Below are positions 34,663-36,151 of a stretch of DNA of 42,846 nt, one piece after another. The DNA is from a virus: positions 1 through 42,846 of IMG/VR virus record IMGVR_UViG_3300042010_000036. The stretch is one strand, 5' to 3'. Position 1 is the first letter of the stretch; each line of letters begins with the position of its first letter. A model generated the notes under the pieces. That model was not told the origin of the DNA, searched no databases, and worked only from the letters and a program-made list of their open reading frames with translations. Made by a program: the position numbers and the translations under genes.

Positions 34663-34953
34663 CTAGATGAGTGTCTTGGTCAGCTCAAGCAGCTCGGCTT
34701 CGGTGCCGAACGCTTCGATGAAAGCGTTTTTCGATCCGTGGATGCTGGGCACTGAGAGCCCGGCGGTTCCGCGGTGGTGGGCTGGGCAAAGTGGCAACGC
34801 GTCGAAGTGGCTAGACTTTCGCCCCATGCCAGTGCCAGCGCGGATATGGTGGATTTCACAGGGTGCTTCAGGGAAGCCAAGTAAATGGCAGCAAATGCAT
34901 CCGAAAGATGAAAGTCTGCCAAGGTGCATCCTTTCTGATTTATTTTTCGACAT
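34663..34953 (-). CDS. ref: Ref-like RecA-dependent nuclease (replaced 5' end)
   Basis: This encodes 96 residues. C19, C21 and C22 (GCICCHL), then CEIHHIRAG (33-40), HFDALPLCPAHHRG (49-62) and SIHGSKNAFIEAFG (70-83) match the Ref nuclease family of phage P1, an HNH-type zinc-binding enzyme that nicks DNA in RecA-made joints. The start overlaps the HNH homing-endonuclease stop by 14 bases. The first ~25 codons are A+T-rich and unlike the rest. A second, older ref start survives as a 15-codon stub at 35691-35738. The catalytic core is complete, so it is probably active. Confidence 0.75.
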   Translation of the reverse strand: MSKNKSERMHLGRLSSFGCICCHLLGFPEAPCEIHHIRAGTGMGRKSSHFDALPLCPAHHRGTAGLSVPSIHGSKNAFIEAFGTEAELLELTKTLI

Positions 34954-35623
34954 GAGTCCATGTCCTCCCATTTTTTATTGCGCTGATGCAGGATTGCGAT
35001 ACACCAAAAAATGCGGCTATTGATCTGTTTGTAGCGCCGGATTCGATAAGTAGCTTTATTTCTTTAACCGATTCATCGGTCAATTTAGATTGAGCGTTAT
35101 CGTTTCCTTTGTGCCATTTCCCGCGATTGGCATCGGACATGTCCTTCATGTTCTGTAGCTGGTCGCCGACGTACAGATGATCAGGGTTGATGCAGGGTCT
35201 GTTATTGCATTTATGGTTTATCTGCATGCCTTCAGGTATATCTCCCTTGAAAACCATCCAAGATGCCCTGTGCGCTTGCTCAAGCCTTCCATTTAATCCT
35301 GCAACGCCGTAACCATTTTTCCTAAACTTTGACCATTCCCAGCATCCAGTCGCGCTAATCTCTACGGATGACATAAGCCTAGATCTGTCATCGCCTATGA
35401 TGACCTTCGTGGCATGTATGTCTCCGTATCTAATTAATCGGGTGTAGTGTTTTGCGCAGAGTCCTTTAGCCTTTGTTGGCGAACCGCACCCAGGTGCAGA
35501 GCAAGGCATTGCCTGATATGGGTCGGCCGTTGTGCCTGACGACCTAATCCGCTGGTAATGCTTCTTGCATAACCCCTTTGCGTAATTCGACTTTCCGCAC
35601 CCCTTTACACTGCACTCGCTCAT
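34940..35623 (-). CDS. Free-standing HNH homing endonuclease
   Basis: This encodes 227 residues from the ATG at 35623 (CAGGGCAAATT upstream). Two small CxxxxC...CxxHY zinc motifs lie at residues 4-23 and 41-60. The HNH_3-type core runs ~95-160 (ATGCWEWSKFRKNGYG, AHRASWMVFKGDIPEG, INHKCNNRPCINPDHL). A helix-turn-helix follows at the C-terminus (~180-222, KEIKLLIESGATNRSIAAFF). The local base composition is A+T-rich (19 of 60 G+C at 35041-35100), unlike the neighbours. It sits between the ref remnant and the re-started ref gene, consistent with recent insertion. Confidence 0.85.
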   Translation of the reverse strand: MSECSVKGCGKSNYAKGLCKKHYQRIRSSGTTADPYQAMPCSAPGCGSPTKAKGLCAKHYTRLIRYGDIHATKVIIGDDRSRLMSSVEISATGCWEWSKFRKNGYGVAGLNGRLEQAHRASWMVFKGDIPEGMQINHKCNNRPCINPDHLYVGDQLQNMKDMSDANRGKWHKGNDNAQSKLTDESVKEIKLLIESGATNRSIAAFFGVSQSCISAIKNGRTWTHVEK

Positions 35624-35690
35624 AATTTGCCCTGACCTAGCTAGCTGTTCGGACATCTTAGCGCAGCTGCAAATCTGTGCAATACGTAAA

Positions 35691-35738
35691 TTACAGCGCG
35701 GCGACTTTGTTCAGATGAAGCTTTTCGGCCTTGGTCAT
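35691..35738 (-). pseudogene. 5' remnant of the original ref gene
   Basis: This is a 15-codon frame (MTKAEKLHLNKVAAL, stop) whose ATG overlaps the NinB stop. Its residues align with the start of the downstream Ref protein (KAEKLHLNKVAAL with KSERMHLGRLSSF), with conserved H-L and basic positions. Its codons are GC-rich like the rest of the phage. It is best read as the 5' end of the pre-insertion ref gene, cut off where the endonuclease cassette entered. Confidence 0.65.
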
Positions 35739-36151
35739 CAGTAGCGCCCATCCCAGTGATCTTTCTGCGTCCATTTCACATCATGCTCAGCGCCGAACGC
35801 CTGAACCCATTCGATCAGCTCGGCGCACTTCTTCATACTGAGCTTGCTGGTGGGTTCGTAAAGTACATCCACGCCCTTGCCGTCGATGGCCGGGATCATC
35901 TGAATCGATTCCCCGCGCTCGCGCAGCCAAGCTGCCGTGCAGAGACGCTTCCAGATGGTCACGTCCCACTTCATACCGGCGTGTTCAACTTGGCGGGCGA
36001 TATCGGCCAAACAAGCGTGTAACTTCTTGTTCTGCTCGGCGCTGCGGTCCTCACCGGTGACAACGACCTTCTTCGGCTTCGACAGATCCAAGCCGGTCAG
36101 GTATCCGATCAGGCGTGCACGGTCGGCATCTGTGGCCAGCTTGAAGTCCAT
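35738..36151 (-). CDS. ninB: NinB-like recombination mediator
   Basis: This encodes 137 residues. RSAEQNKKLHACLADIARQV, then MKWDVTIWKRLCTAAWLRER, IQMIPAIDGKGVDVLYEPTS and KKCAELIEWVQAFGAEHDV are the full conserved series of the lambda NinB (Orf) family, a single-strand-binding-protein partner that helps load recombinases. Its stop codon overlaps the ATG of the ref remnant. It lies in line with exonuclease and annealing-protein genes. Confidence 0.9.
   Translation of the reverse strand: MDFKLATDADRARLIGYLTGLDLSKPKKVVVTGEDRSAEQNKKLHACLADIARQVEHAGMKWDVTIWKRLCTAAWLRERGESIQMIPAIDGKGVDVLYEPTSKLSMKKCAELIEWVQAFGAEHDVKWTQKDHWDGRY

Follow-up and report, generated by a model that had tools for sequence, protein, structure and literature searches.

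A probable homing cassette joining an HNH endonuclease gene to a replacement 5′ end of the phage gene ref

The usual assumption is that selfish endonuclease genes persist within coding sequence either with the help of a self-splicing intron or intein or by leaving a split gene behind. Homing elements that replace the end of a gene are already known, and the closest parallels that we found are in yeast and fungal mitochondria; the cassettes described here would concern 5′ ends, phages, and HNH enzymes. In the WHO elements of Torulaspora and Lachancea yeasts, the end of the target gene and the endonuclease move together (Coughlan et al. 2020, PMC7282813). Mobile ORFs of fungal mitochondria (Allomyces atp6; Glomus atp6, atp9, cox2, and nad3) carry diverged C-terminal copies with 64–81% DNA identity and a largely conserved protein (PMC3630166). 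Free-standing phage homing endonucleases split genes, as with mobE in nrdA of Aeh1 and mobA in gene 60 of T4, and the available portion of the T4 review describes no carried gene ends (PMC2988022). In ShiLan, an HNH endonuclease is inserted in a phage methylase without intron or intein features (PMC11855218). We found no phage case of a gene-end-replacing cassette in the open-access literature; a prior description elsewhere is possible.

The window analyzed here comprises 42,846 nt of IMG/VR record IMGVR_UViG_3300042010_000036, with the locus at 34,663–36,151. The genes run on the minus strand in the order ninB, ref stub, HNH endonuclease gene, and full ref (Table 1). Close relatives of ninB (L005–L013, from IMG/VR) are 75–91% identical to it, and the ATG of the stub, at 35738, overlaps its stop codon as TGATG. 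The endonuclease is made up of zinc-binding N-terminal repeats, an HNH_3 core (Pfam, E = 8e-11), and a C-terminal HTH (HTH_38, E = 3e-4), so that an HNH catalytic domain and DNA-binding modules are both present, and it matched the PHROG HNH endonucleases at E = 6e-35. The ref gene (34953–34663) begins inside the 3′ end of the endonuclease gene with a 14-nt overlap, as the first-pass annotation of this DNA had noted. The whole gene matched Pfam PF16786 (RecA_dep_nuc, Ref) at E = 3.5e-14, and the invariant Cys and His residues are kept in the ref alignment. NGRTW codons at the endonuclease C-terminus encode the GGGAGG that precedes the ref ATG. Conserved GRTW-type codons also occur at the 3′ ends of two other endonuclease genes (L243 and L069), yielding GGGAGG or a nearby GGAGG, and in all three loci the motif lies at Shine-Dalgarno distance from the ATG of the restored gene.

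Table 1. Features of the ninB-ref locus in the window.
Feature	Coordinates	Strand	Remarks
ninB (Orf/NinB recombination mediator), intact, upstream neighbour	35738..36151	-	Pfam PF05772, E = 2e-33
Original ref 5′ stub, 15 codons (MTKAEKLHLNKVAAL) then TAA	35691..35738	-	Uninterrupted frame in L009 and L011
Cassette leader, non-native, between stub stop and endonuclease ATG	35624..35690	-	
HNH endonuclease gene	34940..35623	-	Alternative upstream ATG at 35656 possible
GGGAGG, Shine-Dalgarno-like (putative function)	34964..34969	-	10 nt upstream of ref ATG
Foreign ref 5′ end carried by the cassette, about 37 codons (MSKNKSERMHLGRLSSFGCICCHLLGFPEAPCEIHHI)	34843..34953	-	
Native 3′ part of ref (RecA-dependent nuclease core)	34663..34842	-	

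As with WHO elements, homing would need no splicing and would turn the host gene into a resistant chimera, with the displaced native piece left behind; a diverged host-gene end that rebuilds the full gene is found in the window and in two cases treated below, the L082 type of ref insertion and mycobacteriophage Lesedi. WHO replaces the 3′ end of FBA1, lies downstream, and has its own transcription, whereas the phage cassette supplies a 5′ end, lies upstream, and overlaps the new start; the WHO enzyme is intein-derived and its cleavage has been shown, whereas the phage enzymes are HNH proteins with predicted cleavage. Given its HNH_3 enzyme and 5′ position, the cassette is WHO-like in design but not a WHO element. 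It shares with the fungal mobile ORFs a mobile endonuclease ORF with a diverged gene-end copy and a native end left as a remnant, but those lie at 3′ ends in mitochondria and encode LAGLIDADG or GIY-YIG enzymes. The mobE and mobA genes likewise encode non-intron endonucleases inside phage genes, but the genes that they interrupt yield two separate polypeptides, which have to assemble, whereas the cassette restores a whole gene by means of the end it carries. ShiLan also has an HNH insertion in a phage DNA-metabolism gene, but there the insertion and the host gene form one continuous reading frame, whereas in the window a new 5′ end gives the host gene a fresh start.

The stub was identified through relatives in which ninB and ref are uninterrupted. 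In L009 and L011, TGATG is followed by one open ref frame, which starts MTKTERQHLNKVAALGCIAC and MNKTERQHLNKVAALGCIAC, respectively. Over 45 nt the stub DNA is 82% identical to the ref start of L009, 80% to that of L011, and 89% to that of L024, whereas the present ref start of the window has only 47–51% DNA identity to the starts of L009 and L011. The cassette leader departs from native ref immediately past CTG. These relatives bear out the first-pass proposal of an HNH gene inserted at the start of ref with the old 5′ stub kept, and its expectation that relatives without the HNH gene would have the stub and the ref core in a single frame. It is because of them, and not of the peptide match between stub and present ref start, that the identification is secure; that match is weak (4 of 14 residues and 50% of DNA positions identical). 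A short frame followed by a separate, diverged ref, which the first-pass annotation had named as evidence against its proposal if seen in HNH-free relatives, occurred in none of the surveyed ref loci without an inserted gene. The nearest approach was L044, where a methyltransferase gene is inserted.

The gene content at this position varies. The slot after ninB holds another nuclease, a methyltransferase, or ref among relatives, and the methyltransferase insertion in L044 shows that genes other than endonucleases can also insert at the ref start. In L044 an exact 17-bp repeat, ATGACCAAAGATGAAAA, at 920 (the ref start) and about 545 nt upstream flanks the methyltransferase-like gene, a type of gene also seen in L151 and L159–L161. 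The closest ninB relatives (L005, L006, L008, and L013) have a different small putative nuclease gene (MSQNRITKAARGRDC...) in the ref slot, which also overlaps the ninB stop, and in Pseudomonas phage AF (L003, 3159–3707) another HNH endonuclease gene begins at the ninB stop.

We compared the ref of the window with seven related refs in 30-nt windows. In its 5′ part it was 42–59% identical to them, while they were 69–77% identical among themselves; from about the EIHH codons on, its identity reached the within-group level. Average identity was 54.8% in the 5′ part, against 69.8–78.3% for the relatives, and 83.6% in the 3′ part, against 78.2–84.3%. GC content at third codon positions (GC3) followed the same division, with values of 73.9 for ninB, 73.3 for the stub, 50.4 for the HNH gene, 43.2 for ref codons 1–37, and 73.3 for the remainder of ref, in agreement with the earlier description of a GC-rich stub and an A+T-rich new start. 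On this sequence evidence the ref of the window is a chimera, its first ~37 codons foreign and the remainder native, the foreign stretch extending to about native codon 31–38 (E-I-H-H). The chimera and the GC3 break indicate that the endonuclease and the ref start arrived together and that native ref codons ~16 to ~31–38 were lost. Thus the first-pass view that a diverged replacement start was brought in holds, while its simple cut after codon 15 does not, as ~37 codons were carried.

The two junctions fall at different native codons (15 on the left, ~31–38 on the right), which means either that the cassette did not enter cleanly at one site or that the stub was shortened later. Such an offset would also fit ordinary phage mosaicism, in which an HNH-ref pair took the place of native ref through two crossovers, one illegitimate and one homologous, leaving the stub as debris of an event that the endonuclease did not drive. 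The variable slot after ninB, the methyltransferase gene at the L044 ref start, and the lack of a second copy of the window's cassette in our data point the same way. We nevertheless consider this explanation unlikely in light of what was found at other loci: near-identical cassettes at the same nucleotide in two backgrounds are hard to obtain without a site-specific driver, and several independent HNH lineages sit at gene 5′ ends with a stub and a diverged copy.

The first of these patterns came from a survey of 166 ref loci for insertions at the ref start. In the L082 type, a 31-codon ref stub is followed by a NUMOD4-HNH gene and a recoded ref start. This 654-bp cassette was present in at least 10 contigs (L215–L224) with 0–1 mismatches, and it invariably follows ref codon 31. 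The insertion point is the same nucleotide in two ref backgrounds, whose left flanks are unrelated (28% identical) and each of which has its own stub (87%) and right flank (89%). When joined, the flanks aligned without gaps to empty alleles, with 93.8% identity over 642 nt to L081 and 92.2% over 650 nt to L088. Between the stub and the carried 31 codons, protein identity is 90% but DNA identity only 67%; 22 of the 31 codons are changed synonymously, and GC3 is 61 against 29 between the stub and carried copies. Since the carried copy ends in 27 nt that match the native allele L088 exactly, true recoding is confined to ~66 nt. The pattern in L215–L224 fits cleavage of a cassette-free allele and self-promoted transfer.

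Two other types of HNH insertion were seen in ref. L069 has an HNH endonuclease fused in frame to an 18-codon ref stub; its joined flanks are gap-free against L066, and the new ref opens with 45 nt of foreign sequence. In L031, a related endonuclease has its start at the ref ATG position and shares 32 nt with the ref start. Another HNH type (PHROG 374) is inserted after ref codon 5 in two backgrounds, L047 and L139, whose endonucleases are 78% identical to each other and overlap the replaced ref start by 14 nt; this is weaker evidence, because the stub doubles as the end of an overlapping upstream gene. A profile scan with this endonuclease gave no loci beyond those two. The leader of the endonuclease in both (L047, 180–217, and L139) contains a promoter-like TTGACA-17-TATGTT with an inverted repeat, the arms of which change together between the copies (AACATACAA/TTGTATGTT and AACATAAAA/TTTTATGTT).

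We also tested 75 endonuclease loci, mainly from a NUMOD4-HNH scan, for a duplicated host-gene start against cross-locus controls, and applied a broader local-alignment test to the same 75 and ten further loci. Outside ref there were four clear 5′ cases. Three were L254, in a ParB_N-methyltransferase gene (26 codons, endonuclease fused in frame); L243, in a PDDEXK exonuclease gene (12 codons); and L289, in an unknown gene (12–13 codons, endonuclease fused). The fourth, mycobacteriophage Lesedi, was the only one of eight phage isolates with related endonucleases to pass the same test. L292, L299, L285, and L253 were at or near control level and were not counted. The Cas4 stub of Lesedi, VSEYRYEKKPRSVSQLSQFDKC, is 100% identical over 66 nt to the uninterrupted Cas4 gene of Edtherson, whereas the carried 36 codons have 56% DNA identity to Edtherson and the next 600 nt 98.2%. 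Thor and PascalRango have the same arrangement as Lesedi. In the window and the recurrent 5′ cases, the 3′ end of the endonuclease gene and the new gene start either overlap or are at most ~30 nt apart, and the native end is kept as a displaced fragment, of 12–31 codons in other cases. These comparisons show that the design at the window is no isolated case; it is found again with other HNH lineages and in other host genes. The restored Cas4 of Lesedi has no in-frame ATG close to the expected start; the annotated start of gp64 (L308, 2457–2610) omits a conserved SVSQLSQYDKC segment, and the reading frame stays open for a long distance upstream, extending into the endonuclease gene.

Phage group I introns often house HNH endonucleases, and but for the end of the stub the ref frame would be open, as might be the case if the stub were a 5′ exon and the HNH gene lay in a self-splicing intron, or if the stub were otherwise joined to ref. 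We give this reading very little weight: an Rfam search up to E = 5 found no intron family in the region, and because the downstream ref comes with an ATG, a Shine-Dalgarno-like GGGAGG, and a complete N-terminus of its own, splicing would duplicate residues. In L069 and L254, moreover, the stub and the endonuclease itself make up a single in-frame fusion. A reading of the 15-codon frame as an unrelated leader peptide, or as resembling ref only by chance, with the endonuclease simply preceding ref, might be suggested by the frame's poor residue match to the current ref start but is refuted by L009 and L011 and is extremely improbable, the stub having 80–89% DNA identity to the true ref starts of relatives and lying at the same ninB-overlapping ATG.

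Taken from the sequences, the insertion, the stub, the chimeric ref, and the recurrence of a comparable cassette at the same nucleotide lead us to favor strongly a homing cassette in which an HNH endonuclease gene and a diverged 5′ end of the gene that it targets, ref, are interlocked. A donor carrying the endonuclease and the ref start would have recombined into a native ref, with a right junction in conserved ref coding sequence near the EIHH codons and a left junction that left the native start as a stub. The ref start of the cassette, with its own ATG and Shine-Dalgarno-like sequence, would thereby have been joined to the native body and full Ref restored. The endonuclease would cut uninterrupted ref near the junction, and repair of the break from an occupied allele would drive the spread of the cassette, the stub and the gene body serving as left and right homology arms, respectively. 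The diverged or recoded start would resist cleavage, rebuilding the gene without rebuilding the target, and ref may be translated by coupling to the endonuclease. The loss of the cleavage site from the ref of the window, suggested in the first-pass annotation, is plausible.

We infer that the cassette in the window is mobile, like the L082-type and mycobacteriophage cassettes. Its mobility is argued by analogy because neither a second copy nor a donor was found: the nearest endonucleases were 33–38% identical, the nearest 5′-half ref in phage records was ~52%, and bacterial genomes scanned with native ref gave only two loci, one of which (L054) is a close relative of the query.

On balance, we lean toward the broader view that phages carry a widespread class of homing elements, of several HNH lineages, inside the conserved starts of genes (ref, a Cas4-type exonuclease, a ParB-methyltransferase, and others), which survive without splicing by capturing or severing the native start and supplying a recoded one, several being fused in frame to the captured native start codon and some lying at 3′ ends. 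If true, conserved phage genes could be occupied in a third manner, in addition to introns and inteins, with the cassette supplying a replacement for the part that it destroys. It would account for puzzling small frames and chimeric N-termini in phage genomes and would affect the annotation of gene starts, such as ‘RecB; HNH’ in Lesedi. The two ends of the host gene would evolve separately, as in yeast FBA1. Since occupied and empty alleles exist in cultured phages of M. smegmatis, homing without splicing is directly testable.

Duplicated C-termini were seen at two NUMOD4-HNH genes. In L296 (1961–2633), the C-terminus of a putative portal protein (HPDMMARAGGISMPRKM) is duplicated beyond the endonuclease gene, and in L252 (1976–2567) an Rz1-like C-terminus is duplicated on its far side; judged by these alignments, both are possible 3′ versions in phages.
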